The notes beneath the pieces were generated by a model that was not told the origin of the DNA, ran no database searches, and worked only from the letters and a program-made list of their open reading frames with translations. From the NCBI GenBank assembly GCA_963565915.1, contig OY751485.1, positions 1,426,001-1,490,000 of the forward strand: 64,000 nucleotides of DNA, given 5' to 3'. The stretch is from Entoloma clypeatum. Lineage: Eukaryota > Basidiomycota > Agaricomycetes > Agaricales > Entolomataceae. The position numbers were made by a program, and so were the translations under genes. Positions 14,011-56,948 of the stretch are shown piece after piece. Every line of letters starts with the position of its first letter. The first letter of the stretch is position 1.

Positions 14011-14187
14011 TAATAATACTCACATTGAAGTGAAGGGGTTGAGATGTTTGAGAAGAGTGGGTGATGATAGAAGTTGTAGAACTTGTAAAGCCTTGTTAGA
14101 GCATTAAAGTCTCTTATACTACACTACTTACATGCAGTACTTATATCTATGGGAATGCACACAGACCAACTACGAGCTAGTAACACT

Positions 14188-14575
14188 TGTTATGCTTAAC
14201 AAACCGTTCCAAGGTTCGGGCAGAGTATGCAGGAAGTGGAAAGGCGAAGAGCAAAGTGACTGCTAAATCTAAGGAATGTAGCTATGGTACATGGGGTTTA
14301 TATAGTACTGGCTACAAGCGGTAGCGAGTGAGTCAGTAGCTGCGGAAGGCAGTGCGGATGAGTCCGTAACTGCGGAAAGGCAGTGCAAAGTGAGTCAGAC
14401 GACTGCGGACTGAGTAATCCCTACTGCGGAGTGCGAGTCAGCGTGGGAGCGAAGTATACTAAAGGGGAATGGTAGAGTAAAGGTAAATGAATAAGCGGTC
14501 CGATGAGTCAAAGAAATGACGAAGGTACAATGGAAGGGAAAAGTGCGTAACATACAAACTGGTAAGTCCGTAACA
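14188..14575 (-). repeat. Gypsy-2 copy C 3' LTR (alpha subtype)
   Basis: 388 bp, TGTTA...TAACA. The inside contains degenerate tandem gagtcag/ctgcggaaggcagtg units. On the sense strand the polypurine tract cttgaggaggggaaca (14576-14590) lies directly before it. Confidence 0.92.
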
Positions 14576-14591
14576 TGTTCCCCTCCTCAAG

Positions 14592-14609
14592 CTCTGTGTC
14601 CTCACAGAG
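14592..14609 (-). other. Conserved hairpin between ORF4 stop and polypurine tract (copy C)
   Basis: Sense CTCTGTG-AGGA-CACAGAG, a perfect 7-bp stem with a 4-nt loop starting right after the ORF4 stop. The same hairpin occurs in D and E. Copy B has its outermost pair changed from C-G to G-C, keeping the pairing. Confidence 0.7.
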
Positions 14610-14972
14610 TCATTGTCCCCATCCCTTGTTGTTGCCGGGATTGGACCAGTTCGGACTTTCCTTGAGGCTCCAATCATATATCAACTCCTCGTTGATGGCT
14701 ACGGTGAGTTCGAGGCCTTTGATAGCCAGCCGAATACGTTGATTCTCGATCACGAGGGTGCTGGTGTAGTTCCCGAGAATTTGTTTTTCCTCGGGACTCG
14801 GGGCGACAGGTAGGTTGGACAGCGAGTGGAGCCGGATATGCATCTGGCGATGGAGGAGGTCGGCAAGGGAAGTTTCGAGAGCGTGGATTTGGTCTCTCAT
14901 GGAGAGTGCCTCGTTCATGAGGGCGGCGATGGCGGGGTTGATGTCGGTGGTGGTGACGATGGTGTTTGACAT
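14610..14972 (-). CDS. Gypsy-2 ORF4, accessory ORF downstream of integrase (copy C)
   Basis: An intact 120-codon ORF in the same sense as gag-pol, between the pol stop and the 3' LTR, where retroviruses have env. Visible blocks are DINPAIAALMNEALSMRDQI, ALETSLADLLHRQMHIRLH (helical, heptad-like) and EELIYDWSLKE, ending GWGQ. It has no signal peptide or membrane segment, so it is not an envelope. All four Gypsy-2 copies have it, with the central block nearly unchanged even in diverged copy B. Function unknown; a coiled-coil protein acting on gag or integrase is only a guess. Confidence 0.65.
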   Translation of the reverse strand: MSNTIVTTTDINPAIAALMNEALSMRDQIHALETSLADLLHRQMHIRLHSLSNLPVAPSPEEKQILGNYTSTLVIENQRIRLAIKGLELTVAINEELIYDWSLKESPNWSNPGNNKGWGQ

Positions 14973-15105
14973 GGCGGTGAGGATGGTTGAGAGATAAAAG
15001 AAGAATGGGGTGGCTATATTGGGCAGGGAGAAGACTAGAGCGGGGAACTCAGTGTGTGTTTGACTGATGAGGTCGATACTGTCATGGATTTTGAGAACTC
15101 ATCTT

Positions 15106-18100
15106 TTATTGTGGTCGAGACAGGTTTTGCCGATGGAAATCACGGATCAAATCTTGAGCGTTCTGAACATTAGCTCGAGGTTCCCATGTGTTCTCTTCTG
15201 GGCCATATCCTTCCCACTGAACGAGGTACTGGATCTTTCCGCGGAACTTTCGAGAGTCCAGGATCGTAGACACATGGTACTCTTCTCGTCCTTCGACGAT
15301 GATCGGATCAGGGGCTGATTTCTTTTTCTGGATGGCGTACTTCGGAGTTTCATATGGTGACAACAGGGTCTCGTTGAACACAGGGTGAATCATCTTCCAA
15401 GTCTTCGGAAGATCAAGAAGGTACGCGCTAGCTCCTTTCTTCTCTAGGACTTTGAATGGTCCATGTCGGAGTGCATCAAGTTTCTTTGAGGGTCGATCGG
15501 TCCTGATGTTAGTCCCTTCCAGCCACATCTTGTCTCCGATGCGGTAGTCCCAAGACGGATGTCAACTGTCTTCTTCATCTGATCCTGTGCTTGTTTCAGC
15601 GCAGCATTGGCTTCTTCTCGTGCCTGTTTGAGTTTTTTCAAGAAGTCGTTGGCAGCCGGATTGGTATCTTCTAACACGAGTTCTCCCTTCCATGGATGTA
15701 AACTGTAGTTGAGGTAGAATGGGGTGTGCTTCGTTGCCTGATGTTCTTTGTCATTGTACTGGAACTCTGCGATTGCGATCCATTCAGCCCAATCATCCTG
15801 TAGATGGTTGACAAAGTTTCGTAAGAATGCTTCTGTTTCCTGATGCCATCGCTCGGCCTGTCTGTCAGTCTGTGGGTGGTATGCGGTGGACAGGTTCCTT
15901 TTGATCCCTAGCATGCGGCAGAGTATCTCCATGAACTTCGCGGCGAACTGCGGTCCCCTATCGCTGATGATCTTCTTGGGGATCCCATGAAGCTTCCATA
16001 TCTGATCCCGATAGATCTTGGCTAATCCTTCAGCTGATAGTTCCACGGTTGTCGGAATAAGGTGAAGCATCTTTGAATGTCTATCCGTGATGACCAGAAT
16101 TGCGTTTTTTCCATCAGATTCTGGTATCGGTCCCATGACGTCGATTCCTATGTCTTCCCATGGGTGACTTGGTGCTGCATGGGGATGTAGCGGAGCATGT
16201 CGCTTTTGTCGGTTAATCTTGTTGCGTTGACAAGTGTCGCAACCCTTCACGTACTTCTTCACATCATGCAATATGGTAGGCCACCAATAGGTGCGAGTGA
16301 GGAGTTCATGTGTCCGGTACTGTCCTGGATGTCCAGCCACTGGTGCATCGTGTGACTCAAACATCAATTCTTGTCGTAATTGTGGATCTGGCGGGACATA
16401 GACTCATTCACCTGCATATGTGATGCCGTTTTCCTGTTGATACCAATGAGGATTCTTCTTTAGACCCTGGGCTACTTCTGTCTCCATGTGGTTTGAACCC
16501 TTGATGCGTGTGATCCACGGATTTTCGATGGTCGTGATGTTTCCAATTTTGATGGAATCAGATGTTTCACCCCCTTCAAAGAATTGTTCCTCCATGAACA
16601 TCTCCATTTGTACCACATCTTCTGATTCCAACCGTTTCAAGAATAGTCCCTCCTTGAGCATTTGGTCACTGTCCTGTGGTTTGAGTTCCGCTTCATACCA
16701 GGGTAAGCGTGACAGGATGTCCGCTTTCGCATTGGTCTTGCCGGGCACATGCCATAATTCGAAGTCATAGTCTTGTAACTTCATTTTCCAGCATCGCTGT
16801 TGTTGATTCAGGTCCTGAGGACGACGGAAATATTCCAGGTTCTTGTGATCAGTCAAGATTTCAAAACGTTCCCTGGCTTCAAGCAGATAGTGTCTCCAAT
16901 CTTTTAGTGCTTCCACGACCGCCAGGAGTTCCTTGTCATATATCTCATAATTCTGTTCGGCCGCGGACATGGTCCGCGACAAGAACACGATGGGGTGCCA
17001 TTTGTCGTCTTGCTTCTGAGAGAGTACTGCTCCAATTGCATAGCCCGATGCATCGGTTTCAACCCTGAACTGTCCCTCTGGTTTTGGTAATGCCAAGACT
17101 GGTGCCGATGTGATTGCCTGTATGAGACCTTCAAAAGCTTGCTGCTCTGTTGGTCCCCAAGTAAATGCCGTACCGCCTGTGAGCGCGGTGAGAGGTTTTG
17201 CGATGTTTGAGTACCCTTCAATAAATTGTCGATAGAAGTTAGCAAATCCAAGGAACTTCTGAACTTCCTTTTTTGATGTGGGTGCTCGCCAGTTTCGAAT
17301 TGTATCCACCTTCTCAGTTTCCATCTCAACACGTCCCTCACCAACCACATATCCCAATATAGGACATTTCGTTACTTCCCATAAACACTTCTTCTCCTTT
17401 AGGAACAAATCATTGTCCGATAGGATCTGTAGGATTTCTTCAGTGTTTCACGCGAGTTCTTCCTTGGTTTTACCAATAACCACGATGTCATCCATGTAGA
17501 TCACGCAGATACGTCGGCGGATCTGGTCCCGGAATAGACTAGCCATCATTCGAGAGAACGTTCCCGGGGAGTTGCAAAGACCGAAAAACATGACCAATGG
17601 TTCGAACAATCCTCGACTGGTGAGGAAGGCAGCTTTCCATTCATCGCCCTCATTAATCCGGACGTTGTTATAGCCCCACATGATGTCCATTTTATTGAAG
17701 TAGACCGCATCTTTCAGTACGTCCAAGAGATCGGATATTCGTGGGAGTGGGAACTTGTCTTTGACCGTGAATTTATTGACCATGCGGTAATCTTGTACCA
17801 ATCGTTTGGAGCCATCCTTTTTGTTGATGAAGAAGCAAGGGGAGGCATAAGGGGATTTGGACGGGCGGATCTTTCCTGTTGCTAGACCCTCGTCAATGAA
17901 TGCGTCCAATTCTTCTTGTTCCTTTTGCGTCATAGGATATGTATTTCCCCCTAGTTCCTTTGGTGCGTCCGGTGTAAGTTCAATACCATGGTCCCATTCC
18001 CTCTCCTTTGGGATCTTGTCAAAGTTCTCTTTCTCGAAAAGATGAGCAAATCGTTCAACATATGAGGGTCGTTTGGTTGTGGGAGGTGGTGTGGGAGTGA

Positions 18101-18696
18101 CAGCTTCCAAAATAGGGTCTCCAGGCTTCCATTTCTGATCCGACTTTTTGGGTGCATCTTTGTCGCGCACCTCAACCATGCGAACCCGGTGCTTGCGACC
18201 ATTAAGGTTAATCCTAAAATCCGAGTGTTTGGTCCGTTGGGCACCGGTTAAATGTTACCGCGCCGGTTGTCCAATTGATTGTGGGGTTGTGGTGTACCAA
18301 CCAGTCATGTCCCAAGAGCATGTCTGTCCTCCCAATGTCCAGTACCATTGCTTCCATGGTTTCCTGATGTGCTCCCAAATCCAGCTTGACTTCGGCAAGT
18401 TGGCTCGCTTTCTGTTGTTGATTTGGTGATCCATCCGCATTTAGAATTGCTATGGGTGGTATTCCTCGCATGGGGAGGTTCTGTTCGCGTACTATTCTGG
18501 GATGAATGCATGTGCGTTCACATCCGCTGTCAACCTCAGGTCGGATAACCTTTGGTCCTCGTCGTGTTTTGAGCTGCGCTAACAGCCTGATTTCTCGTCT
18601 TTTCGGAGGTTTATCTCCCTTCACAATCTTAGTCGACGCAGCGGCTCGCTTGGCAGGGATGACATAGGTTCTATTGTCTGCAGTCATACAAGGCAA
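15106..18696 (-). pseudogene. Gypsy-2 pol, copy C (frameshifts and two TGA)
   Basis: Protease (EVDSGCERT), RT (IYMDDIVV near 17490), RNase H (ETDASGYAIGAVLSQ), integrase zinc finger (CDTCQRNK), core with SDRGPQF and TDRQAERWHQETE, and chromodomain core [16 protein letters not shown]. Defects: an 8-nt deletion near 18235 separates protease from RT, TGA at 17448-17450 (CGG in copy B), TGA at 16404-16406 (CGA in copy B), and a 10-nt deletion near 15550 that puts the last 140 codons in another frame. The first two TGA and the 8-nt deletion recur in D and E. The integrase motif reads DRQAER where the family norm is DGQ-ER. Confidence 0.88.
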
Positions 18697-18715
18697 GCAA
18701 GTCCGTTTAATAGAT

Positions 18716-18751
18716 AAGGGTCGCGACTTAGCGTCGTTTAATCGGACCCTT
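18716..18751 (-). other. Stem-loop enclosing the gag stop codon (copy C)
   Basis: Sense AAGGGTC (7 nt) pairs with GACCCTT; inside, CGAC pairs with GTCG around GCTAA. The gag TAA lies in the internal loop. The 36-nt structure is identical in copies B, D and E, although flanking sequence differs. It is a candidate signal for making pol. Confidence 0.6.
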
Positions 18752-19940
18752 CGGGAAAATCCTTCTCGTTGGCTTCTAAGATTGTGGTTTCATCATTCTC
18801 GGCATCTTCCTCGGACACCTTCCTAATCCTTCCGGAGTTCTTCTTCGGCTTGCGGCAGTTGCGCGCGATATGGCCTTCTTGGTCGCAGTTGAAACACTTG
18901 CGACCATCTTTCTTCTTTGGAGCGCTACAGTCTTTAGCCAGATGACCGAAGCGTTGACAGTTGTAGCAATGGGCTACTCCTGCTTCGTCGATCTCCATGG
19001 CTTTGCCCTGACCACCATAAGTGGTACCCGATCCGGTGCGCATGTTGCCACCACCTCGGATGACCAGTGCGTGTCCTTCCATCTGTCGTCCCTTGTTTCG
19101 GATCTCCTTTGCGTAATCGGTGTACGTCTTGCCATTGCTGGCCACTTGTTCAGAGATTCTGTGGTTGACGTTTTTCTCCAGGATGTATTTCCCAGTTTCT
19201 TCGCCAAGGTTTGACAGTTTCAAGAGTTCTTCAAATTCATCCAAGAATTCATCAACAGTGTGTTTCTCTTGTTTCAGCACTTCGAGTCTCGCTTTGGCAG
19301 TGACCAACTTGTTGGCGATGGAGAATCATGTGGCGATATCATTGGAAAAACCTAGCCAGGTGATGTTCTCATTGTCAACGGCAAGAGCATCTAACTTGTT
19401 ACTGGCCCAGTGTCTGCCGGACCCTTCCATCATGCGGGATAGTACCGCAAGAATCTTCTGATCGTCTGTGAGGCTCTTTTGGAACCTGATGTATAGTTTG
19501 GTGGCTTTCCACCACTCGTCAAAGGTGTATCTGTCCTTGAACATTCCAGGATCCTTGATGATCTTGGATGTATCCATTGTTTGTACAGCCGGAGCTTCTG
19601 CCATGTTCAGAGTCTGCGGAGGAGAAGAGGAGTCGGGTTGTTGGGATGAAGATGGGGTTCCGGATACAGGTAAGGATTGAAAATGAGTCCCTGTTCTAGG
19701 CGTCTGTTTGATATCTGACTGCGCGGAGTCAAAAGTAAATTCGTCAGGGGACTTGTCGGCGGAATCAGTGGCAAAACGTTCAGAGTATTTCCTCTGTAAA
19801 TCTCTAAGGAATCTCTGTTCCTGTGCGTCTGTTGGTCTCGAGAAGGGGTCAAGTCTCTCGTTTCGTGCCCAGCGGTTGTACTCGGTCTGTTGTTCTTCGG
19901 TGGTGAAGTGGGCGTAGATCTGCTGCTTCGAGTAGGACAT
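18738..19940 (-). pseudogene. Gypsy-2 gag, copy C (one TGA)
   Basis: A 401-codon frame (MSYSKQQIYAHFTT start) with a capsid-like region around TFDEWWKATKLYIRF and two CCHC knuckles, CYNCQRFGHLAKDC and CFNCDQEGHIARNC, before the end. TGA at 19326-19328 splits it; copy B has CAA here, so at least two changes occurred. The same stop is present in D and E. The 5' third overlaps ORF1 in another frame. Confidence 0.88.
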
Positions 19941-20335
19941 GATGATGTGGTTCTGGGACGTCTCGATGTGAGCGTCCTAATCAATCTTCTGATAACGGTT
20001 GTCTGGACACCGATAAACTCTCTGATCTCTGTGATCCGACCTGTCTGAGGTCCTTCTTGAACGCGAAAGCTTTCGAGTTCATTCTGTCGGGCGTTGTAAC
20101 GCGCGATCTGGTGTTGCCGAGCAAGATGGATGCTCTCTGCTATCTCGCCGTGGGGGCGATGCTCGTCGTTGTCTAGTTCTTCGTCAAGCACCTGCTGTAG
20201 GATGCGACGGATCTCCGATTCGATGTACTGCTGGATGAGTGTAAAATCGATACTGTCTCGAGGACTTAGCTCCTCCTGTCGGGCTTCTGGCGTGCTGAAT
20301 GGGTTACTGGTGAAGTCTTCAAAGAAGCGCGATGT
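19607..20335 (-). pseudogene. Gypsy-2 ORF1, copy C (start codon lost)
   Basis: A 243-codon frame. In copies B and D it starts ATG-TCG-CGC; here and in E the first codon reads ACA. It is otherwise open. The first 130 residues are unique to this frame and predict helices (IESEIRRILQQVLDEELDND, EIAESIHLARQHQI); the remaining 110 codons overlap gag. Function unknown. Confidence 0.55.
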
Positions 20336-20382
20336 CTTGACTCATCTGGTAGTTGCTCTCTTCGCTCTGGGCGAACCTAACA

Positions 20383-20393
20383 AGATTTAGCAA
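20383..20393 (-). promoter_or_regulatory. Gypsy-2 predicted self-primer binding site (copy C)
   Basis: Sense ttgctaaatct lies 2 nt after the 5' LTR and is complementary to agatttagcaa in the LTR just downstream of its TATA box. Confidence 0.72.
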
Positions 20394-20395
20394 CT

Positions 20396-20783
20396 TGTTC
20401 TGCTTAACAAACCGTTCCAAGGTTCGGGCAGAGTATGCAGGAAGTGGAAAGGCAAAGAGCAAAGTGATTGCTAAATCTAAGGAATATAGCTATGGTACAT
20501 GGGGTTTATATAGTACTGGCTATGAGCGGTAGCGAGTGAGTCAGTAGCTGCGTAAGGCAGTGCGGATGAGTCAGTAACTGCGGAAAGGCAGTGCGAAGTG
20601 AGTCAGACGACTGCGGACTGAGTAATCCCTACTGCGGAGTGCAAGTCAGCGTGGGAGCAAAGTATACTAAAGGAGAATGATAGAGTAAAGGTAAATGAAT
20701 AAGCGGTCCGATGAGTCAAAGAAATAACGAAGGTACAATGCAAGGGAAAAGTGCGTAACATACAAACCGGTAAGTCCGTAACA
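20396..20783 (-). repeat. Gypsy-2 copy C 5' LTR (alpha subtype)
   Basis: 388 bp. It starts tgttctgc here in place of tgttatgc. The right flank tgaag is the first base set of the interrupted Gypsy-1 LTR. Confidence 0.92.
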
Positions 20784-20987
20784 TGAAGGATGAATGAAAA
20801 CAAGATGAATGATAGTATCTGTGATCCGACATGCGGAGTAGCGGATGGGGGCGGAGTCATCGGATGCGGAGAGGTGGATAAGATGTCGGAGACAGCGGAT
20901 ACGATCAGAGGACGTCGGAGGTGGTGGAATAGAAATGAAAGGAAGAAAGGAAAGGAAAAGTGAAAAGTGAAAGTGGTTGCCCTTACA
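20784..20987 (-). repeat. Half of a Gypsy-1 LTR, separated from its other half at 49317-49543
   Basis: Matches Gypsy-1 LTR positions from tgaaggatgaatg to the terminal cccttaca. The other half lies left of copy E and ends ...cgatgaag. Joined with one tgaag the two make 227 + 199 = 426 bp, which equals the 434-bp LTR minus an 8-bp deletion visible in the left half. Confidence 0.88.
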
Positions 20988-21032
20988 GATGCCGGATTAG
21001 CAGAGGAGGCCCCATGAGGCCCTGGGGTAGAA

Positions 21033-21583
21033 TGTTACACTTTTTCCCTTTCCTATGCACCTTCACACGATTCTGCGACCCTCAATCCTTATCAGGCCCC
21101 ATTTCGCCTATTTCCGATAACCCTGGGACACATGTCCCCTCTAACAGCGATATGACTCACATTGACTTGGACTATTCCCCTTTTAGATACATTTTCACTT
21201 GTTATCTCTGACTCATGGCCTTGAGGCCTTATCTCTGACTCCTATGCCACAACCCCTTGAAACATCTAACTAACCAATGGCTTATTTAGCTCCTGCGCAG
21301 CATCTACTTAATTATAGCCACTGGATAACATATATAAGACTTGTAACTTAGAGTAGAGGTCCTCAGCTTGATCTAGGCAATTAATGCTGACTTGTCCTAT
21401 CCCTTCAATGCTCTCCAACTAAGTGCCTTGTGAGGACTTAGCTCAGCTAGAACCAAACCGAGTCGTCCTTCTGAGGAGCTCGTTGATCTTGACCAAGTCG
21501 ACCTATTGAGGGACTTGTGTGTGGAAACAGTACGAACCCACATGACTTGATACTTGAACTGATTGTAGGCTATCGCCGTAACA
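21033..21583 (+). repeat. LTR of a third gypsy-like family (Gypsy-3)
   Basis: 551 bp, TGTTAC...GTAACA ends, with a TATATAAG box at 21331-21338. Sequence tcagcttga at 21363-21371, 32 nt after the TATA start, is complementary to tcaagctga at 21589-21597 just past the LTR end, as in the other two families. No partner LTR lies in the window, so the element is truncated on its 3' side. The boundaries rest on the terminal motif and the primer site only. Confidence 0.6.
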
Positions 21584-21588
21584 AAAGG

Positions 21589-21597
21589 TCAAGCTGA
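21589..21597 (+). promoter_or_regulatory. Gypsy-3 predicted self-primer binding site
   Basis: tcaagctga lies 5 nt after the LTR and is complementary to 21363-21371 inside it. Confidence 0.5.
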
Positions 21598-21601
21598 TCT
21601 A

Positions 21602-22024
21602 TGTCGTCAACCCACCGCGGTTTTAGATACAAAGATTCCTCCCCGACGATCAACCTATGGAGTCCCGTCCGACTCAGAAGACAAACAGGAGTTCGTTGAT
21701 GCACCCGTTACACCACAACAACCACCGACACCGTACAGAAGAGTAACCTCCTCTTTCGTGCCACTCGACCCCACATCACCTTCCTACCTCTTCCGAAGAC
21801 GAATCCCACCGCCGCCAGCTGTTGCTGTTGCTGCACCTAGACCAAAGACCCCAGACACCCCAGTTGAAACAACACCTGTAGAAATGACTTCTCAGGCCAG
21901 GAACCCAGAAAAAGAAATTAAGATCAGCCCACCAGCAATAGTGACATGGTACACGAAAATAATGCATAAATGGGCCAACAACCCTATGCATTATGCATTA
22001 TGCAATATGCCTCAATTTTCTTGA
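21602..22024 (+). pseudogene. Gag-like N-terminal stub of Gypsy-3
   Basis: One frame is open from the LTR end to a stop at 22024. It is proline-rich and acidic with YGVPSDSEDKQEFVDAPVT, PQQPPTPYRRVTSSF and LFRRRIPPPP blocks, the composition of a gypsy gag N-terminus. No ATG begins this frame (the ATG at 21601 is out of frame), so an indel or truncation is likely. No capsid core or zinc knuckle follows. The assignment rests on position after an LTR and primer site. Confidence 0.4.
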
Positions 22025-22806
22025 GCCCCAATGTGGTTCCGCCAAAAATCCATGCATTATGAGAATGTCGACTGTATTATTATTTGTTTTTTGATACTAG
22101 AATATATATTCTTATGATATACCATCACAAAGGCAGCTTCAGCCAGCTTGTAAGCTGCTCCAGAGCCAGAGCAAGCCAAAGACATGGCTTGGCAGTGAGC
22201 CAATCACGCAGCTTCATGCAGCTCAGCTAGCTGACCCGCAGCAACACTACAGGAGACACACAATAGCATGAGACAAGACACAGAGCATCCATAGGAAAGT
22301 AGAGGTCCACGTGAAACTCAGCACCATCAGTTCCCCTTCCCCAGTCGAAATCGGATCAGCTGGGATCATGATTTTTCAGGGCTTTCATCAGGTTAAAATA
22401 GGAAATTTGAGTTAACCGATAAATCATCCAACTTATTATGTTTGGATGGGAATTATCTTGAAATCCAATCATTTTTCCCAGCCAATTCCCGCTCAATAAG
22501 GGCTTAGTCCTGTTTCTCAACCAACCAGAACCAACTTGGAACCAAAAACCCCCCTGAAAACCCCTGATCAAACCCCTTGAGTTCCCCAATATGACCCACA
22601 AATGGTTCAACTTTTAGGGTTTGAGTGGGAATCATCAATTTTCCCATTTAATCCAATTTTAACCCACTCAGCCCTGAAAAAGCCCTGAAAAATCGGCGAA
22701 AGATCACAATTCCAGCCGACCCGATTTCCACTGGAATTCACCACCAGCCTTTGTACACCAGCCTTTGTACCTGTCAAGGGCTTGGGAATACTGGTCTCAC
22801 CATTCT
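22025..22806. other. Intergenic, no gene recognised
   Basis: AT-rich sequence with short repeats (tgcattatgcaatatgc near 21990, cagcttgtaagctgctc near 22146). No protein or RNA gene was recognised. Confidence 0.5.
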
Positions 22807-25325
22807 CTAGTGACTCCCACTCGCCGAGCCAAGAAAATAACAAAGTCGTGACAATTCTTTGTCTTTGGCTCGTTGACCGTCACATTTTTCTGAATGCCCA
22901 AAGTCGACGATTGTAACACCTGAGTCACCGATAAGGATATTATCCCGACGGATGTCTCCGTGGAGTATGCCTGCACAATGAATAGATTTCAATGTTGAGA
23001 GTGCTGATTCGCTAATTTGAAATGAATAACCAGTATTGTACGTCGAACAAGTAAAACCTACCGGTCAGAGATCGACAAATTGCATTGCGACTCGGTGGAG
23101 AGTGGAACACCTGCATAAAGCATGACAAGAGCACAAGCGCCACCTTCGGAGTCATCGAAGAAACCCAGTGCTGTCGCGATGCCTCGACGAACTCCCTTGG
23201 ACCTCAAACGGCGATAGACTTCGTATTCGCTCCTGAGGGCATCCCGCTGTCCACTGTCAAACGCGAGCTTGACGACTACATCCAGTGGCATGGCTCCTTC
23301 CATAATTTCTGGCTCAAGTGTGCCGCGGTGGACCACGCCTGTTGCGCCCCGCCCAACTTCCGATGTAAGGATAATGGTCAGACATTCCTCTAGCCCGTAA
23401 GTGCGGATGGCTTGTGGAGACAATGGGGGAGTTGGACACCTTGTGTGTGTCATGATCGAAGGAGCAGAGCGAAGGAACGAGGCAGGTACCGGGGAGTCGT
23501 ATACATCGTATTGGAGGTAGAGAAGGACAACAGCACGGTTACTGGCCACACCTATCGTTTTCTGTAGCTTGTCAGGTTCGTCGAAAGACTAAACATAGGT
23601 CAGGCCAAACATACCTCGATGGCTACCAATTCACCATCCTGAGGACCTTTCCTTCCTGCCGAGCCTTGGAATCCACGCTTTTTCCCACCTCTACCCTTGC
23701 GATGTCCACGGCCGTCCTTGCGCCGACTTCCAGAACCCCGATCACGACCCTGGTCGCCCCGGGCCTTGTCCCCAGCGATCAAGTCACCAGGGGGCTTTAA
23801 TTGGGATAGGCGGTCCACCGTGTCTTGGATGGCAGCGATATAGATGCCAACATGGAGCTTCCCATACCCGGGGTCAACGCACGTAGATGGTTCTATGACG
23901 TCTGAAACGTAAAGCGTCTGAGAGGCTCGATGGCGGAGACACACGAGCTCGTGGTTGCCTGAGTGAAGGACGATGACGGTCCCATCGACTCGTACGGCTT
24001 GTGCCCACGCCTGAGAAAGTTGACAGATCAGCATTATTTTGACGGGTATTGTATTGCACGTCACCTGCTGCACTAGACTTTGCGCAGAAATGCCATGCCG
24101 ATCTTGGTAGGCCTTCTCTTCCTCTTCCTTTTCCTCGTCATCATCTCGTCGGCGTTTCTTGCCTTTATCCTTCGTACGAGACATGTTAGGCCGATATTGG
24201 TAGGCCTCCTCTTCCTCGTCGTCGTCTTGTTGGCGTTTCTTGCCTTTATCCTTGCTACGAGACCGATGATTTGATGGACGTGATGCACTCGGTTGTGCTG
24301 GAGGGAGCGTCGGAGGACCTGACCCTGCAGCTAATCGAGTGACTTGTCGAGTGACCGGTCGTTGTGGGGTTGCAGAGGATGCTACAATGGGTGCGAGTGG
24401 TTGTGCGTCGATTTCTTCATCGCGACTTCCTGTAACAAGGGAAGTATTTGAAGCACCATTCTATAATTGATGAACACCATTTTTGGCGATTTAGAGAGTA
24501 CGAACATACAGGGAAACTCCATGGGGGAGCCTGCGCATCAGGTCCAACGACAGCCCGCAGGACATTCTCCTTTGCTCTCACATGTTTAGAAATCGAGGAG
24601 CAATTGGGAGCAATGCAGGTCGTCCAAGAAAAATCGCCTAGTTCAGGAACCGCCACCATTACTTCAACAGAACCCGCACTGATACTCTTCATCCCCAAAG
24701 GCAACCCAGACTCCCTCAGCTCCTCAAAGATGCGACGAATTTTGGGCTCCATGCTGTCCACGATGGCTGCCTGTTGTGTTTTCTCGATCTCATCGACGCG
24801 TTCCTCCATGAAGCAGAGCTGCCCGTCCATAATTGCATAACTGGAGGAAGGACCTGATTGCGTCCAGAACAAGAGAGACCGCCATCGTGAAAACGGAGCA
24901 GTGGGGTGCAGAGCAAGGGTCGAAGCCACAGGCGTGCAGTATGAGGCGGTGGTTTTGTCGTAAAAGTTGGTAACTGCTTTTTCGTCGGTCACAACAGTGT
25001 TTAAATTCTCCAGGAGATCTGCTCGTATTTCGGCTGTGATGAAGCCAGCCAGAGGCGGAAGGGTGGCTAAAGCGGCGTCAAGTGCTGTATCGACATTTTT
25101 TGCTAGATCTTGGACTAGGGTTGGAAGCCGCACTACCCTCTTAAGAACCAGCTTTTTTTTTAAATGTTTATCATAAACCGAAGGTGCACAGGTGGCAGTT
25201 GATGGCTTCTTGTTAGGCGCAGGAATGAGAGGAGGCGGATTCCAAGAGAATAATGCCTTGATTTCGTCGAGGGCTTCAGGTGGGGACCCAGCAATGGTAG
25301 AAGGCCCAGCAATGGTAGAAGACAT
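22807..25325 (-). CDS. Five-exon gene with C-terminal protein-kinase-like domain
   Basis: Proposed exons: 25325-24510, 24460-24065, 24010-23615, 23561-23062, 23011-22807; introns of 49, 54, 53 and 50 bp, all GT-AG, all phases consistent, giving 770 aa. Residues 1-272 are of unknown family. Exon 2 has two tandem copies of a KDKGKKR basic block followed by a DDDEEEEAYQ acidic block. Exon 3 ends in an RG/K-rich stretch (GHRKGRGGKKRGF), plausibly nucleic-acid binding or nuclear. The kinase-like domain fills the C-terminus: glycine loop GRGATGVV (606-613), lysine in VVKLAF (634), catalytic HGDIRRDN (Asp722, Asn727), metal-binding DFG (739-741). It ends about 30 residues after DFG, so the C-lobe is much shorter than in canonical kinases. 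No broken exon and no CGA-derived stop occur, unlike the elements around it. Substrate unknown. An atypical or degenerate kinase is the alternative. Confidence 0.65.
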
Positions 25326-26948: not shown

Positions 26949-26964
26949 TGTTCCCCTCCTCAAG

Positions 26965-26982: not shown

Positions 26983-26985
26983 TAC

Positions 26986-43715: not shown

Positions 43716-43734
43716 ATCTATTAAACGGACTTGC

Positions 43735-47283: not shown

Positions 47284-47416
47284 AAGACAGCCTCGGAATC
47301 CATGACAAGTATCGACCTCATCAGTCAACCACACACCGAGTTCCCCGCTCTAGTCCTTTTCCCTGCCCAATATAGCCTCCCCCTTTTTCTTCTATCTCTC
47401 CACCATCCTCACCGCC

Positions 47417-47788
47417 ATGTCCAACACCACCGTTACCTCCACCTCCACCACCGACATCAACCCCGCCATCGCTGCTCTTATGAACGAAGCGCTATCCATG
47501 AGAGACCAAATCCACGCCCTCGAAACTTCCCTTGCCGACCTCCTTCATCGCCAGATGCATATCCGGCTTCACTTGCTGTCCAATCTCCCCGTCGCCCCGA
47601 CTCCCGAGGAAAAACAAATTCTCAGAAATTACACCAGCACCTTTGTGATCGAGAATCGATGTATTCGACTGGCTATCAAGGGCCTCGAACTCGCCGTAGC
47701 CATCAACGAGGAGTTGATTTATGATTGGAGCCTCAAGGAGAGTCTGAACTGGTCCGATCCCGGCAACAACGAGGGATGGGGACAGTGA
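47417..47788 (+). CDS. Gypsy-2 ORF4, copy D (intact)
   Basis: 123 codons, ATG with accatg-like context, 130 nt after the pol stop. Thr/Ser-rich start, then NEALSMRDQIHALETSLAD, HRQMHIRLH, a proline break (LPVAPTPEEK), and an NEELIYDWSLKE end. Likely a helical coiled-coil protein of unknown function. Confidence 0.67.
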   Translation: MSNTTVTSTSTTDINPAIAALMNEALSMRDQIHALETSLADLLHRQMHIRLHLLSNLPVAPTPEEKQILRNYTSTFVIENRCIRLAIKGLELAVAINEELIYDWSLKESLNWSDPGNNEGWGQ

Positions 47789-47806
47789 CTCTGTGAGGAC
47801 ACAGAG
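47789..47806 (+). other. Conserved hairpin after ORF4 (copy D)
   Basis: CTCTGTG-AGGA-CACAGAG immediately after the ORF4 TGA; the polypurine tract cttgaggaggggaaca follows. Confidence 0.7.
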
Positions 47807-47822
47807 CTTGAGGAGGGGAACA

Positions 47823-48193
47823 TGTTACGGACTCTACGGTATGAGGACCACGTCATATCTTTTACTTATCGGCCCGACTCGGTGCCCTCTTACGAACTTA
47901 CTATGTCTAATATCTACTTTCGCAACCTTCGGTTCCCAGTCTGACTCATTACATTACTTCGTCATCCCCTTTAGTATACTTCGCTCCCGCGCTGACTCGC
48001 TTTCCGCAGTCAGCTTACTCACTGTACATAGCCTTCCGCAGTACTGACTCATCCGCTATCGCCTATAGTCAGTACCTATATAAACCTCTTGTACTATAGT
48101 AGATTCCTTAGATTTAGCAATCACTTTGCTCTTCGCCTTTCCATTCTCCTGCATACTCTGCCCGAGCCTTGGAACGGTTTGTTAAGCATAACA
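47823..48193 (+). repeat. Copy D 3' LTR (beta)
   Basis: 371 bp, about as similar to the E right LTR as that one allows, apart from a 32-bp tandem duplication there. Its U3 start tgttacggactctacgg differs from the alpha LTR. Confidence 0.92.
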
Positions 48194-48917
48194 TCCAGTC
48201 AAGTAAGCCTTCGCTAGAGACATCGTGATGTGTCCATGTGGTTGACAATGCGACAGGTACGTTCTTTTCTCCATATTCTACCTCTATCATGCTTGTGAGG
48301 ACACTATTCCACTATCTCGGTCTATTGATACACCTCGCGACGATGCTAATGAGTTACTGCGAGGTATCAGATGCTTTGATGAAGGGTCATCTCGGTAAGC
48401 AACCGATCAACAACCGATCCATATCAATATGTCTGCCATGTAATGCACATTGATCGCGGTGTATCAAACCCGATCTCGGTCTGTTTGATCCGATGTCATT
48501 GGCTATTCCCCATATGGACCATTTGGACGCAAAGCGAGGCGCACGTTTGCCAAGCCTCTCGCGAGAATGTCTCCAGTCAAGCCCTCGATGTATAGTAGAC
48601 AGTGCTAGTGTCATTGATAAATCCAATATAATCAATCTCCTTGTTTCGCGCTTTGTTTTGAGAGGTGCTTGATAGTCTTATCTATCTCGTGAGACGATCC
48701 CATGGCTCTCGAGTATCATAGCTAAGCCCATAGTGGTGACCAGCACTATGTCCTACATTGCCATGGTCTCTAAATGCTTTAAAATGTCTCTCTAACGTCG
48801 CCACTAAGTCCTCAGAATCAGAGCTCATCTAGGACTCTCTATATCCCTTAGAGATAGTGTGAAATGATGCAAAATGCGAAGATTTAGGCCTAGACACATC
48901 ACAGCCCTATCAGCGTG
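48194..48917. other. Unassigned sequence between copies D and Gypsy-1 remnant
   Basis: No gene recognised. It begins with the TSD tccag. By the rearrangement model it was once joined, inverted, to the sequence at 56150. Confidence 0.45.
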
Positions 48918-49155
48918 ATCCATTGAAGTCCGACGGATTGGCAGGTTTTGCTCGATGCACACCCGGATTGGCCGGAGCAAGTGGAGCGGGTATAATAGCG
49001 GGTGCGGGAGCAGGTGGGATAGGTGGCGGAGCTGGGGCAGGAATTGTGTTGAAGGCGAGGAGGAGTTGGTCAAGTTGAGTCGAGATATCAGCGAGAGTTT
49101 GACGTTGTTCCTGGAACTTGTGCTCGAGCTGTTCAAGGCAATTGGGGTCATCCAT
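48918..49155 (-). pseudogene. Truncated Gypsy-1 gag (N-terminal 80 codons)
   Basis: Starts MDDPNCLEQLEHKFQEQ and matches Gypsy-1 gag through PANPSDF; homology then stops near 48920. At the site of the first Gypsy-1 TGA this copy has CGA, which proves the direction of change there. Confidence 0.8.
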
Positions 49156-49316
49156 TACTATGCACGGAGCAGAATCACCAGTTATGGAGAGGTAATTAGA
49201 AGAACTGGAAGGGGTGTGAGATGTATCGGAGTCGGAAGCGGACGAAGCTGCTCCGAAGCGTGGAATTGTGACAATGATGCAATCGGACCCGGTCCAATTA
49301 GAAGAGAACTTTCTAC

Positions 49317-49543
49317 TGTGAGGGCGACCTTACGATCCAAGACTCGAACTCAGATACTTGCAAGGGAGATCCGAAGTTTAGATTGAGCAGTCTGATAAGT
49401 AATACAACACACACCTTGCAAGGGAGATCCGAAGAGAAAGTTCTAAGGATTCCCCTGCAAGCTAGCAAGATAAAATGAGATATGAAATAAGAGATAAAAC
49501 AAGACACATGAATGATGAGCAATGATCGGGAGTAGCGATGAAG
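49317..49543 (-). repeat. Gypsy-1 LTR fragment interrupted by copy E
   Basis: Matches Gypsy-1 LTR from its tgt-aggg end to cgatgaag (starts tgtgaggg here). It has an 8-bp deletion relative to 11182-11416. Its continuation is at 20784-20987. Confidence 0.88.
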
Positions 49544-49931
49544 TGTTATGCTTAACAAACCGTTCCAAGGTTCGGGCAGAGTATGCAGGAAGTGGAAAGG
49601 CGAAGAGCAAAGTGATTGCTAAATCTAAGGAATGTAGCTATGGTACATGGGGCTTATATAGTACTGGCTACGAGCGGTAGCGAGTGAGTCAGTAGCTGCG
49701 GAAGGCAGTGCGGATGAGTCAGTAACTGCGGAAAGGCAGTGCGAAGTGAGTCAGACGACTGCGGACTGAGTAATCCCTACTGCGGAGTGCGAGTCAGCGT
49801 GGGAGCGAAGTATACTAAAGGAGAATGATAGAGTAAAGGTAAATGAATAAGCGGTCCGATGAGTCAAAGAAATAACGAAGGTACAATGCAAGGGAAAAGT
49901 GCGTAACATACAAACCGGTAAGTCCGTAACA
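49544..49931 (-). repeat. Copy E 3' LTR (alpha)
   Basis: 388 bp, close to both C LTRs and the D 5' LTR. Confidence 0.92.
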
Positions 49932-49947
49932 TGTTCCCCTCCTCAAG

Positions 49948-49965
49948 CTCTGTGTCCTCACAGAG
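49948..49965 (-). other. Conserved hairpin after ORF4 (copy E)
   Basis: Sense CTCTGTG-AGGA-CACAGAG, as in C and D. Confidence 0.7.
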
Positions 49966-50334
49966 TCATTGTCCCCATCCTCCAGCATCGTCGTTGTTTG
50001 GCCAGGAGCCATTCTCCTTGAGGCTCCAATCGTCTATTAGCTCTTCGTTGATGGCGACGGCGAGCTCAAGACTCCGGACGGCTAGTCAGATGCGCCGGTT
50101 TTCAATGACCAGCATACGGGTGTAGTTCCCGAGGATTTGTTTTTCTTCAGGGGTTGGTGCGACGGGGAGGTCGGATAAAGAATGGAGGCGGATGTGCATC
50201 TGTCGATGCAGGATGTCGGCGAGCGAGGCTTCTAGCGCGTGGATCTGGTCTCTCATGGAGAGGGCTTCACCCATGAGGGTAGTGATGGCGGGGTTGGTTT
50301 CAGTGGATGTGGTGGTGACGTTGGCGGTGGACAT
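49966..50334 (-). pseudogene. Gypsy-2 ORF4, copy E (one TGA)
   Basis: 123-codon frame, MSTANVTTTSTETNPAITTL start, conserved EALSMRDQIHALEASLAD and HRQMHIRLH. TGA at 50086-50088 stands where copy D has CGA; the frame continues to GGWGQ and a final TGA. Confidence 0.75.
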
Positions 50335-50456
50335 GGTGCGGAGGATGTTGGAGAGATAGAGGAAGAATGGAGTAGCTATATTGAAGACAGAGCGGAGAAC
50401 TCGGTGGGTTTTTGACTGATGAGGTCGATGCTGTTGCTGATTTCAACGGTTGTCTT

Positions 50457-53400
50457 TTATCGTGGACGCGACGGGTTCTGCCAATGGAAATCACGGATCA
50501 AATCTTGAGCGTTCTGAACATTAGCTCGAGGTTCCCATGTGTTCTCTTCTGGACCATATCCTTCCCACTGGACGAGGTACTGGATCTTTCCGCGGAACTT
50601 TTGAGAGTCTAGGATTGTAGACACATGGTACTCTTCTCATCCTTCAACGATGATCGGATCAGGGGCTGGTTTCTTTTTCTGGATGGCGTACTTCGGAGTT
50701 TCATATGGTGACAACAGGGTCTCGTTAAACACAGGGTGAATCATCTTCCAAGTTTTTGGAAGATCAAGAAGGTACGTGCTAGCTCCTTTCTTCTCTAGGA
50801 CTTTGAATGGTCCATGTCGGAGTGCATCAAGTTTCTTTGAGGGGCGATCGGTCCTGATGTTAGTCCCTTCCAGCCACATCTTGTCTCCGATGCGGTAGTC
50901 CCGAGACGGATGTCAACTGTCTTCTTCATCTGATCCTGTGCTTGTTTCAGCGCAGCATTGGCTTCTTCTCGTGCCTGTTTGAGTTTTTTCAAGAAGTCGT
51001 TGGCAGCCGGATTGGTATCTTCTAACACGAGTTCTCCCTTCCATGGATGTAAACTGTAGTTGAGGTAGAATGGGGTGTGCTTCGTTGCCTGATGTTCTTT
51101 GTCATTGTACTGGAACTCTGCGATTGCGATCCATTCAGCCCAATCATCCTGTAGATGGTTGACAAAGTTTCGTAAGAATGCTTCTGTTTCCTGATGCCAT
51201 CGCTCGGCCTGTCTGTCAGTCTGTGGGTGGTATGCGGTGGACAGGTTCCTTTTGATCCCTAGCATGCGGCAGAGTATCTCCATGAACTTCGCGGCGAACT
51301 GCGGTCCCCTATCGCTGATGATCTTCTTGGGGATCCCATGAAGCTTCCATATCTGATCCCGATAGATCTTGGCTAATCCTTCAGCTGATAGTTCCACGGT
51401 TGTCGGAATAAGGTGAAGCATCTTTGAATGTCTATCCGTGATGACCAGAATTGCGTTTTTTCCATCAGATTCTGGTATCGGTCCCACGACGTCGATTCCT
51501 ATGTCTTCCCATGGGTGACTTGGTGCTGCATGGGGATGTAGCGGAGCATGTCGCTTTTGTCGGTTAATCTTGTTGCGTTGACAAGTGTCGCAACCCTTCA
51601 CGTACTTCTTCACATCATGCAATATGGTAGGCCACCAATAGGTGCGAGTGAGGAGTTCATGTGTCCGGTACTGTCCTGGATGTCCAGCCACTGGTGCATC
51701 GTGTGACTCAAACATCAATTCTTGTCGTAATTGTGGATCTGGCGGGACATAGACTCATTCACCTGCATATGTGATGCCGTTTTCCTGTTGATACCAATGA
51801 GGATTCTTCTTTAGACCCTGGGCTACTTCTGTCTCCATGTGGTTTGAACCCTTGATGCGTGTGATCCACGGATTTTCGATGGTCGTGATGTTTCCAATTT
51901 TGATGGAATCAGATGTTTCACCCCCTTCAAAGAATTGTTCCTCCGTGAACATCTCCATTTGTACCACATCTTCTGATTCCAACCGTTTCAAGAATAGTCC
52001 CTCCTTGAGCATTTGGTCACTGTCCTGTGGTTTGAGTTCCGCTTCATACCAGGGTAAGCGTGACAGGATGTCCGCTTTCGCATTGGTCTTGCCGGGCACA
52101 TGCCATAATTCGAAGTCATAGTCTTGTAACTTCATTTTCCAGCATCGCTGTTGTTGATTCAGGTCCTGAGGACGACGGAAATATTCCAGGTTCTTGTGAT
52201 CAGTCAAGATTTCAAAACGTTCCCTGGCTTCAAGCAGATAGTGTCTCCAATCTTTTAGTGCTTCCACGACCGCCAGGAGTTCCTTGTCATATATCTCATA
52301 ATTCTGTTCGGCCGCGGACATGGTCCGCGACAAGAACACGATGGGGTGCCATTTGTCGTCTTGCTTCTGAGAGAGTACTGCTCCAATTGCATAGCCCGAT
52401 GCATCGGTTTCAACCCTGAACTGTCCCTCTGGTTTTGGTAATGCCAAGACTGGTGCCGATGTGATTGCCTGTATGAGACCTTCAAAAGCTTGCTGCTCTG
52501 TTGGTCCCCAAGTAAATGCCGTACCGCCTGTGAGCGCGGTGAGAGGTTTTGCGATGTTTGAGTACCCTTCAATAAATTGTCGATAGAAGTTAGCAAATCC
52601 AAGGAACTTCTGAACTTCCTTTTTTGATGTGGGTGCTCGCCAGTTTCGAATTGTATCCACCTTCTCAGTTTCCATCTCAACACGTCCCTCACCAACCACA
52701 TATCCCAATATAGGACATTTCGTTGCTTCCCATAAACACTTCTTCTCCTTTAGGAACAAATCATTGTCCGATAGGATCTGTAGGATTTCTTCAGTGTTTC
52801 ACGCGAGTTCTTCCTTGGTTTTACCAATAACCACGATGTCATCCATGTAGATCACGCAGATACGTCGGCGGATCTGGTCCCGGAATAGACTAGCCATCAT
52901 TCGAGAGAACGTTCCCGGGGAGTTGCAAAGACCGAAAAACATGACCAATGGTTCGAACAATCCTCGACTGGTGAGGAAGGCAGCTTTCCATTCATCGCCC
53001 TCATTAATCCGGACGTTGTTATAGCCCCACATGATGTCCATTTTATTGAAGTAGACCGCATCTTTCAGTACGTCCAAGAGATCGGATATTCGTGGGAGTG
53101 GGAACTTGTCTTTGACCGTGAATTTATTGACCATGCGGTAATCTTGTACCAATCGTTTGGAGCCATCCTTTTTGTTGATGAAGAAGCAAGGGGAGGCATA
53201 AGGGGATTTGGACGGGCGGATCTTTCCTGTTGCTAGACCCTCGTCAATGAATGCGTCCAATTCTTCTTGTTCCTTTTGCGTCATAGGATATGTATTTCCC
53301 CCTAGTTCCTTTGGTGCGTCCGGTGTAAGTTCAATACCATGGTCCCATTCCCTCTCCTTTGGGATCTTGTCAAAGTTCTCTTTCTCGAAAAGATGAGCAA

Positions 53401-54047
53401 ATCGTTCAACATATGAGGGTCGTTTGGTTGTGGGAGGTGGTGTGGGAGTGACAGCTTCCAAAATAGGGTCTCCAGGCTTCCATTTCTGATCCGACTTTTT
53501 GGGTGCATCTTTGTCGCGCACCTCAACCATGCGAACCCGGTGCTTGCGACCATTAAGGTTAATCCTAAAATCCGAGTGTTTGGTCCGTTGGGCACCGGTT
53601 AAATGTTACCGCGCCGGTTGTCCAATTGATTGTGGGGTTGTGGTGTACCAACCAGTCATGTCCCAAGAGCATGTCTGTCCTCCCAATGTCCAGTACCATT
53701 GCTTCCATGGTTTCCTGATGTGCTCCCAAATCCAGCTTGACTTCGGCAAGTTGGCTCGCTTTCTGTTGTTGATTTGGTGATCCATCCGCATTTAGAATTG
53801 CTATGGGTGGTATTCCTCGCGTGGGGAGGTTCTGTTCGCGTACTATTCTGGGATGAATGCATGTGCGTTCACATCCGCTGTCAACCTCAGGTCGGATAAC
53901 CTTTGGTCCTCGTCGTGTTTTGAGCTGCGCTAACAGCCTGATTTCTCGTCTTTTCGGAGGTTTATCTCCCTTCACAATCTTAGTCGACGCAGCGGCTCGC
54001 TTGGCAGGGATGACATAGGTTCTATTGTCTGCAGTCATACAAGGCAA
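50457..54047 (-). pseudogene. Gypsy-2 pol, copy E (frameshifts and three TGA)
   Basis: Same domains as C. TGA at 52799-52801, 51755-51757 (shared with C and D) and 50637-50639 (CGA in C). The 8-nt deletion near 53585 and the 10-nt deletion near 50910 are also present. Integrase motifs SDRGPQF and DRQAERWHQETE are retained. Confidence 0.88.
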
Positions 54048-54066
54048 GCAAGTCCGTTTAATAGAT

Positions 54067-54102
54067 AAGGGTCGCGACTTAGCGTCGTTTAATCGGACCC
54101 TT
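54067..54102 (-). other. Stem-loop enclosing the gag stop codon (copy E)
   Basis: Same 36-nt structure as in B, C and D. Confidence 0.6.
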
Positions 54103-55291
54103 CGGGAAAATCCTTCTCGTTGGCTTCTAAGATTGTGGTTTCATCATTCTCGGCATCTTCCTCGGACACCTTCCTAATCCTTCCGGAGTTCTTCTTTGGC
54201 TTGCGGCAGTTGCGCGCGATATGGCCTTCTTGGTCACAGTTGAAACACTTGCGACCATCTTTCTTCTTTGGAGCGCTACAGTCTTTAGCCAGATGACCGA
54301 AGCGTTGACAGTTGTAGCAATGGGCTACTCCTGCTTCGTCGATCTCCATGGCTTTGCCCTGACCACCATAAGTGGTACCCGATCCGGTGCGCATGTTGCC
54401 ACCACCTCGGATGACCAGTGCGTGTCCTTCCATCTGTCGTCCCTTGTTTCGGATCTCCTTTGCGTAATCGGTGTACGTCTTGCCATTGCTGGCCACTTGT
54501 TCAGAGATTCTGCGGTTGATGTTCTTCTCTAGGATGTATTTCCCAGTTTCTTTGCCAAGGTTTGACAGTTTCAAGAGTTCTTCAAATTCATCCAAGAATT
54601 CATCAACAGTGTGTTTCTCTTGTTTCAGGACTTTGAGTCTCGCTTTGGCAGTGACCAACTTGTTGGCGATGGAGAATCATGTGGCGATATCATCGGAAAA
54701 ACCTAGCCAGGTGATGTTCTCATTGTCAATGGCAAGAGCATCTAACTTGTTACTGGCCCAGTGTCTGCCGGACCCTTCCATCATGCGGGATAGTACCGCA
54801 AGAATCTTCTGATCGTCTGTGAGGCTCTTTTGGAACCTGATGTATAGTTTGGTGGCTTTCCACCACTCGTCAAAGGTGTATCTGTCCTTGAACATTCCAG
54901 GATCCTTGATGATCTTGGATGTATCCATTGTTTGTACAGCCGGAGCTTCTGCCATGTTCAGAGTCTGCGGAGGAGAAGAGGAGTCGGGTTGTTGGGATGA
55001 AGATGGGGTTCCGGATACAGGTAAGGATTGAAAATGAGTCCCTGTTCTAGGCGTCTGTTCGATATCTGACTGCGTGGAGTCAAAAGTAAATTCGTCAGGG
55101 GACTTGTCGGCGGAATCAGTGGCAAAACGTTCAGAGTATTTCCTCTGTAAATCTCTAAGGAATCTCTGTTCCTGCGCATCTGTTGGTCTCGAGAAGGGGT
55201 CAAGTCTCTCGTTTCGTGCCCAGCGGTTGTACTCGGTCTGTTGTTCTTTGGTGGTGAAGTGGGCGTAGATCTGCTGCTTCGAGTAGGACAT
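54089..55291 (-). pseudogene. Gypsy-2 gag, copy E (one TGA)
   Basis: 401-codon frame with both zinc knuckles; TGA at 54677-54679. It differs from C at several residues around 54500-54650 (for example LKVLKQEK, NINRRISEQ), consistent with a different parent toward its 5' end. Confidence 0.88.
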
Positions 55292-55686
55292 GATGATGTG
55301 GTTCTGGGACGTCTCGATGTGAGCGTCCTAATCAATCTTCTGATAACGGTTGTCTGGACACCGATAAACTCTCTGATCTCTGTGATCCGACCTGTCTGAG
55401 GTCCTTCTTGAACGCGAAAGCTTTTGAGTTCGCTCTGTCAGGTGTTGTAACGCGCGATCTGGTGTTGCCGAGCAAGATGGATGCTCTCTGCTATCTCGCC
55501 GTGGGGGCGATGCTCGTCGTTGTCTAGTTCTTCGTCAAGCACCTGCTGTAGGATGCGACGGATCTCGGATTCGATGTACTGCTGGATGAGTGTAAAATCG
55601 ATACTGTCTCAAGGACTTAGCTCCTCCTGTCGGGCTTCTGGCGTGCTGAATGGGTTACTGGTGAAGTCTTCAAAGAAGCGCGATGT
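54958..55686 (-). pseudogene. Gypsy-2 ORF1, copy E (start lost, two TGA)
   Basis: 243-codon frame as in D, but the first codon is ACA. TGA occurs at 55609-55611 and 55438-55440, where B, C or D have CGA. Confidence 0.55.
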
Positions 55687-55733
55687 CTTGACTCGTCTGG
55701 TAGTTGCTCTCTTCGCTCTGGGCGAACCTAACG

Positions 55734-55744
55734 AGATTTAGCAA
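55734..55744 (-). promoter_or_regulatory. Gypsy-2 predicted self-primer binding site (copy E)
   Basis: Sense ttgctaaatct, 2 nt after the 5' LTR, complementary to agatttagcaa in that LTR. Confidence 0.72.
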
Positions 55745-55746
55745 CT

Positions 55747-56149
55747 TGTTATGCTTAACAAACCGTTCCAAGGCTCGGGCAGAGTATGCAGGAAAGTGGA
55801 AAGGCAAAGAGCAAAGTGATTGCTAAATCTAAGGAATCTACTATAGTACAAGAGGTTTATATAGGTACTGACTATAGGCGATAGCGGATGAGTCAGTACT
55901 GCGGAAGGCTATGTACAGTGAGTAAGGCGACTGCGGAAGGCTATGTACAGTGAGTGAGCTGACTGCGGAAAGCGAGTCAGCGCGGGAGCGAAGTATACTA
56001 AAGGGGATGACGAAGTAATGTAATGAGTCAGACTGGGAATCAAAGGTTGCGAAAGTAGATATTAGACATAGTAAGTTCGTAAGAGGGCGCCGAGTCAGGC
56101 CGATAAGTAAAAGATATGACGTGGTCCTCATACCGTAGAGTCCGTAACA
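55747..56149 (-). repeat. Copy E 5' LTR (beta)
   Basis: 403 bp. It contains a 32-bp tandem duplication (actgcggaaggctatgtaca unit repeated) that explains the length difference from the 371-bp LTR of D. Confidence 0.92.
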
Positions 56150-56948
56150 CTGGATACCCCTTAGTGAGACCACATGCATCCCTTTTCTATATTTATTGCA
56201 GCTCATGTATAAAATCTCATAGTTTCGTTGTAGATAGGTTAGGTTAGATTGTGCCCCAGAATTGATAGCATTTGTCTTGTGCATCTGTCGTTGTTCGCGA
56301 GTATCATTGAAGCCTCAAGATCATTTGGTTTGCATCGGAAGTCAGTCGCGATTGTGTTTTGTGTGTTCGAGAACTTGTCAATCGTCAAATTGTGCTATCT
56401 ATCGGTCGTATTGGTCATTGTCGTGTTCGTATTCGGTCGAGATCATGTTCGCGAAGTCTTGTTTGGTTCGGAAATCACAAACCTCGGTTCATTATCTATT
56501 GAGAACTATCTCTAAGTCTTGTTCAAGACTTATTGAGCCATCACTAAGCAAGTTATTCAATTGTTGTTTGGAAGAGTCGCATCCTGAGTGATCCCACTCA
56601 TCACCCCGAACTATATCGATTGAGAAGTACGCATCGCGAGACTTGTTTGGTCTTCGTTGTTGTGTTTGGTGTTTGTGTGTGTGTTAGAGATATTGCTCAC
56701 GCTCATCCCCAGAATTTACATTATTAAAGTGATTTAATTTAAGTTTCATTAATTCAAGCCTCACTTCCTTCGTTTCATCTCGAGCCCACTGCGAGGGGTG
56801 GTTCTAAAAACAAGAGTTTAACTCTATATTGGTTCGCTATTGTCCCTTTCAAGGAATTCAGCGATAGCTCTCGCTTGAGAGATAACCCTGTCCTCTTTGA
56901 GCACAACTGGTGTCGCACCAAGAAGCGATACAAACCCTTGCAGTCAGC
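56150..56948. other. Unassigned sequence right of copy E
   Basis: No gene recognised. A tataaaatc motif at 56214 and tcg/ttg-rich sequence suggest an untranslated leader or old LTR, but no ends could be set. Confidence 0.4.

Follow-up and report, generated by a model that had tools for sequence, protein, structure and literature searches.

Organisation of the locus

The window, a stretch of 64,000 bp from Entoloma clypeatum contig OY751485.1, contains three neighbouring copies of a Ty3/Gypsy retrotransposon, designated C, D and E, which are all bounded by TGTTA..TAACA. Their coding strands, as given by the open reading frames (ORFs), are minus, plus and minus, and the reading frame of each copy is broken into several ORFs. 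A further copy, B, lies between C and D; C and E align with it at 85% over 5.8 kb and D at 87% over 4.6 kb. The assignment to Ty3/Gypsy is based on the order of reverse transcriptase, RNase H and then integrase in the copy B ORF at 27928-31077 (Pfam RVT_1, RT_RNaseH, Integrase_H2C2 and rve, in this order), on LTRs of the TG..CA form and on the 5-bp duplication. The region left of C is referred to as segment a, the two regions between the copies as b and c, and the region right of E as d. Copy ends are attributed to three likely insertions, E1, E2 and E3, as set out below.

14188..20783, minus strand: Gypsy copy C, flanks ACACT / TGAAG; left end attributed to E1, right end to E2
20784..41647: segment b, 20,864 bp, putatively inverted relative to the order at insertion; contains copy B and a kinase-like gene
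22807..23588, minus strand: kinase-like gene in segment b, from Pfam
26579..39881, minus strand: Gypsy copy B, CGTAC on both sides, an internal control; contains a nested copia element
32297..39023: copia element nested in copy B, GTGGG on both sides, an intact duplication
41648..48193, plus strand: Gypsy copy D, flanks AGTGT / TCCAG; left end attributed to E1 (AGTGT being the reverse complement of ACACT), right end to E3
48194..49543: segment c, 1,350 bp, putatively inverted relative to the order at insertion
49544..56149, minus strand: Gypsy copy E, flanks TGAAG / CTGGA; left end attributed to E2, right end to E3

A 5-bp target duplication within one copy is absent in C, in D and in E, and all six ends pair across copies instead. 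More specifically, ACACT left of C is the reverse complement of AGTGT left of D, TGAAG right of C is identical to TGAAG left of E, and TCCAG right of D is the reverse complement of CTGGA right of E. Based on the 5-mer frequencies of the window, a complete pairing of the six ends in any of the 8 possible cross-copy arrangements has a chance of approximately 1.2e-8. The first-pass annotation of this DNA had given exactly these flanking 5-mers, with no match inside a copy and all of them pairing across copies, and had placed the limits of the inverted segments correctly at 20784-41647 and 48194-49543. Its statement that the neighbouring copies lie in the opposite orientation required for inversion agrees with the strands found here for C, D and E. 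The kinase-like gene that it had read in the 21-kb segment is real, although partly read: positions 22807-23061 (minus strand) match Pfam Pkinase at 1.9e-8, above the cut-off of that model, whereas 23058-23585 matches PK_Tyr_Ser-Thr at 0.044, below its cut-off. Segment b additionally carries a 301-aa ORF on the minus strand at 24417-25325 with 71 homologues, of which the two that carry an organism name are hypothetical proteins of Amanita muscaria; it gave no Pfam match at 0.01. Other named proteins met in the homology searches belong to Agaricus, Lyophyllum, Armillaria, Trametes and Panaeolus.

Target duplications in other copies of the family

Whether other members of the family retain their duplications was assessed in the best 40 of 2140 first-look candidates for the left end of C, which is not a random sample; 39 of the 40 were other copies. 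Both ends were readable in 24 of these 39. The 15 copies that were dropped comprise 12 without a right LTR in the 801-bp stretch fetched and 3 with only part of the right LTR. A perfect 5-bp duplication is present in 21 of the 24 readable copies, four of the five bases agree in two, and one copy has no match.

The copy without a match (G000:C1:326820) is full-length, with LTRs that are 98.4% alike, and its flanks, TCTAT and GAGGG, are the only ones among the 24 that do not resemble each other. One of the two copies that agree in four bases has two LTR types: G000:C14:3989583, flanked by CCTTC and CCGTC, has a left LTR of type A and a right LTR of the type of copy B (97%), and may be a further element that arose by recombination or conversion. 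Two copies that lie 24 kb apart on the same strand (G000:C8:1552339 and C8:1576697) have identical left LTRs and a common 10-bp left flank, and probably represent a segmental duplication. Furthermore, an inverted pair approximately 31 kb apart was found on C15 (G000:C15:2673484, minus, and C15:2704988, plus), with 1 mismatch in 3,600 sampled bp. Both members of this pair carry their own intact duplication, and they are probably two recent sibling insertions.

Interrupted host repeats and the probable order at insertion

Each of the three insertions split a multicopy repeat at its target 5-mer: repeat F at ACACT (E1), the LTR of a G-family element at TGAAG (E2) and unit H, a repeat of approximately 1.28 kb, at TCCAG (E3). 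The pieces of these repeats now lie beside different Gypsy copies.

5512..11615, minus strand: G-family Gypsy element, whose right LTR displays the uninterrupted E2 target
13971..14187, plus strand: left piece of repeat F (E1 target); its join with the reverse complement of 41428-41642 matches paralogues
20784..20988: right piece of the G element (LTR, E2 target); joined with 48944-49543 it matches 10809-11616
41428..41647, minus strand: right piece of repeat F, from the genome search of the join and junctions read in detail
48194..48915, minus strand: first piece of unit H (E3 target)
48919..49543: G-element piece left of E2, comprising internal part and LTR, from self-comparison and the alignment of the join
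56150..56713, plus strand: second piece of unit H, from the join search, the unit limits and the reading of junctions

We reconstructed the join expected at each target before insertion and searched the genome with it. For the E1 join (14187 followed by the reverse complement of 41642 downward), the best 40 of 208 candidates were scored; two were the window's own halves, and the remaining 38 all span the junction at 84-88%. Reading of these junctions in 10 places revealed a single target site without a gap, gaps beginning 11 or more bases further on, and in several places one or two differing bases in the target site. The E2 join (49543 to 20789) gave one alignment through the G-element LTR at 10809-11616 of the window, at 93.7%. 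Genome-wide, with the best 40 of 965 candidates scored, all 40 main matches span the E2 junction at 93-95%, one of them being the window's own element, while one further match was a short half piece. Likewise, the E3 join (the reverse complement of 48194-48493 followed by 56155-56454) matches at 93-97% in all 40 places scored, the best of 192 candidates. With scoring confined to the best 40 candidates of each search, these numbers of spanning places are minimum values. The limits of unit H were set from 12 loci, some of which fall short of one or the other limit; in the 12 places read, the H junctions are gap-free with a single target site.

In contrast, the joins in their present order at C, D and E gave no spanning match among the best 40 scored of 824, 356 and 973 candidates, respectively, and in these searches the window's own halves extend over the junction by 8 bases or fewer. 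The uninterrupted single-copy target site is found in paralogues, in the same genome. Since the ancestral joins match paralogues without interruption and the present joins do not, flanks that share a 5-mer are halves of one multicopy repeat in the assembled sequence. Together with the exact cross-pairs, this indicates that C carries ends of E1 and E2, D ends of E1 and E3, and E ends of E2 and E3.

The order of the segments at the time of insertion would accordingly read a, -b, -c, d. This order is supported by the target duplications, the uninterrupted paralogues of the target sites, the lack of a spanning match for the present order among the candidates scored, and the LTR types of D and E described below. 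Two inversions are the minimum number that gives the present order, and on these grounds the earlier reading of C, D and E as a record of two inversions is supported.

A near-copy of part of this region was observed approximately 27 kb to the right of the window end (G000:C1:1517401-1518244). It comprises 844 bp that differ by 1 mismatch from window positions 48072-48915, consisting of the last 122 bp of the right LTR of D and 722 bp of unit H, and continues across a GCGCGC palindrome into a G element read in the opposite direction. A templated insertion or a fold-back copy would look like this, and the near-copy shows that the region underwent other events that a history of two inversions does not explain.

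LTR types of the breakpoint copies

The LTRs were compared within and between copies. The left and right LTRs of D are 74.8% alike and those of E 74.0%, each copy having one A-type LTR and one LTR of a different type. D and E are therefore chimeric in their LTRs, whereas the LTR pair of C is 95.9% alike, within a range of 92.2-100% in intact copies. The right LTRs of D and E agree at 97.8-98.1%, and their identity to any other LTR compared is no higher than 88%, which supports the view that they are the two ends of one insertion. The A-type pairs across copies are 98.2% (E1) and 97.9% (E2) alike; the left LTR of E has closer matches elsewhere (99.0%) than the right LTR of C.

LTR identity alone was rejected as proof of pairing for the A type: the own partner is the best match in only 4 of 21 intact copies, a figure that is skewed by a truncated 206-bp LTR, which takes 8 of the 17 better matches.

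A nearly identical internal core

Alignment of the three copies revealed an internal core of 3,123 bp that is nearly identical in all of them.

15736..18858, minus strand: homogenised core in C
43573..46695, plus strand: homogenised core in D
51087..54209, minus strand: homogenised core in E

The core differs at 4 positions between C and D, at 5 between C and E and at 1 between D and E (99.8-99.97% identity), with 4 changes private to C and 1 to E. Exact shared runs extend over 1,875 bp between C and D, and over 1,638 and 1,492 bp between D and E. Outside the core, the right internal part differs by 1.5-3.0%, the left by 7-14% and the copy ends by up to 25%. To place these values among the family, a 1.2-kb sample of the core was compared in 23 sequences, namely C, D, E and 20 of the 24 other readable copies. 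In this sample, 1-2 bases separate C, D and E from each other, against 2.8% for the closest of the other copies and 4.4% for the median pair. Apart from these three, no pair falls below 1.7% except the inverted pair on C15, at 0.

Recent transposition was considered as the source of the core identity and rejected: the LTR pairs have diverged by approximately 2% since insertion, compared with 0.03-0.16% in the core, and the copy ends differ by up to 25%. Given this divergence of the LTR pairs, the core must have been homogenised after the insertions, if the assembly is right. The simplest account is gene conversion with crossing-over in the core, where the crossovers probably lie. The 5 private changes in 3 x 3,123 bp (9,369), set against an LTR-pair divergence of approximately 1.9% (approximately 0.95% per LTR), suggest that the homogenisation is roughly 18 times younger than the insertions.

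Proposed history and alternative explanations

We consider it highly probable that homologous recombination between Ty3/Gypsy copies of opposite orientation inverted segments b (20.9 kb) and c (1.35 kb) through two crossovers, following what were likely three independent insertions. In this history, E1 (ACACT), E2 (TGAAG) and E3 (TCCAG) would have landed in minus, plus and minus orientation. Segment b would then have been flipped by a crossover between E1 and E2, and segment c by one involving E2 and E3, in either order. Both crossovers probably took place within the 3.1-kb core, and gene conversion, acting long after the insertions, would have brought the core to near identity in the three copies. 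Being nearly identical in C, D and E, this probable crossover tract bears no mark of the order of the events or of the crossover points.

The same near-identity gives some room to an assembly artefact, in which the cores of the three copies were collapsed by the assembler or polisher and wrong exits taken, such that the inversions exist in the assembly only; the three insertions and the cross-paired duplications would remain real. Swapped flanks around a near-identical 3.1-kb core are what a collapsed repeat node is expected to produce, and exact runs of 1,875 bp (C-D) and of 1,638 and 1,492 bp (D-E) are shared between copies. We nevertheless regard an artefact as improbable. It needs two separate misjoins, the cores carry private changes (4 in C and 1 in E), and the 20 contigs obtained for 60 Mb suggest long reads that would span 6.6 kb. 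Furthermore, 21 of the 24 other copies were assembled with perfect duplications, and so was the inverted pair on C15, which is at least as alike in the sampled parts. Since that pair keeps two separate intact duplications, this assembly can resolve inverted pairs of this kind.

Alternatively, both segments could have been flipped at once in a single complex event, for example by template switching between the three copies during replication. The three cores are about equally alike, so that nothing parts two events in time, and the nearby 844-bp near-copy, which ends at the GCGCGC palindrome, resembles a template switch. However, the element at every junction has retained both ends and is free of stray sequence at its borders, and two simple inversions suffice; we therefore assign this explanation a very low probability. 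That the mismatched duplications reflect mere decay or chance matches is close to negligible. Three of the 24 other copies do lack a perfect duplication, two of them agreeing in 4 of 5 bases, but three exact cross-pairs have a chance of approximately 1e-8, and empty-site paralogues exist for all three insertions.

C, D and E might form a standing flip cassette, in which recurrent recombination in the core homogenises it and repeatedly flips the 21-kb segment with the kinase-like gene and the 1.35-kb segment. We hold this to be unlikely; it would imply that the two orientations still segregate between present-day nuclei or strains.

Comparison with known systems

The closest parallel is inversion 2z3 of Drosophila buzzatii, which was mediated by the transposon Galileo and is reported to have opposite copies at its breakpoints, exchanged target duplications and chimeric copies (PMC2775673). 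Opposite copies, exchanged duplications and chimeras are shared with the present locus, as is the single uninterrupted target in the uninverted state. Galileo differs in being a DNA transposon with 7-bp duplications, and 2z3 was compared with uninverted chromosomes (PMC2775673). C, D and E belong to an LTR retrotransposon with 5-bp duplications, the empty sites that give the polarity are paralogues within the same genome, and three copies record a pair of small linked inversions. For LTR retrotransposons, copies of Ty1 in budding yeast are described as mediating rearrangements, inversions among them, with a hybrid Ty at a junction (PMC3102749). Those rearrangements were accumulated and selected in the laboratory, while the present case comes from a natural genome sequence (PMC3102749).

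In Atlantic cod, ectopic recombination between opposite related elements was inferred from chimeric or similar repeats at inversion breakpoints (PMC12368964). In that study the inversions are large, lie between ecotypes and were compared across haplotypes, and the term 'target site' is absent (PMC12368964). Regarding homogenisation, conversion in plants is reported to be far more frequent when the two LTRs belong to the same element than when they belong to different ones (PMC7251063). The present locus resembles the situation outlined there in that retrotransposon sequence was homogenised after insertion, but here it would concern a 3.1-kb internal core common to three neighbouring elements.

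A literature search run without the organism name gave no report of this locus among its top results. Ectopic recombination that exchanges target duplications is already a known mechanism. The novelty lies in the specimen, a well-documented one, in which three LTR-retrotransposon copies record two small, linked inversions and the polarity is taken from the same genome. As a whole, the locus provides a self-contained record of probably two inversions, and a single genome, with no outgroup, suffices to tell which order came first. The target duplications, the LTR types, and the host repeats that are split here and intact in paralogues all agree. The inversions are moreover linked to a stretch that was recently homogenised. 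The test based on split host repeats could be used to count retrotransposon-driven inversions across repeat-rich fungal genomes.
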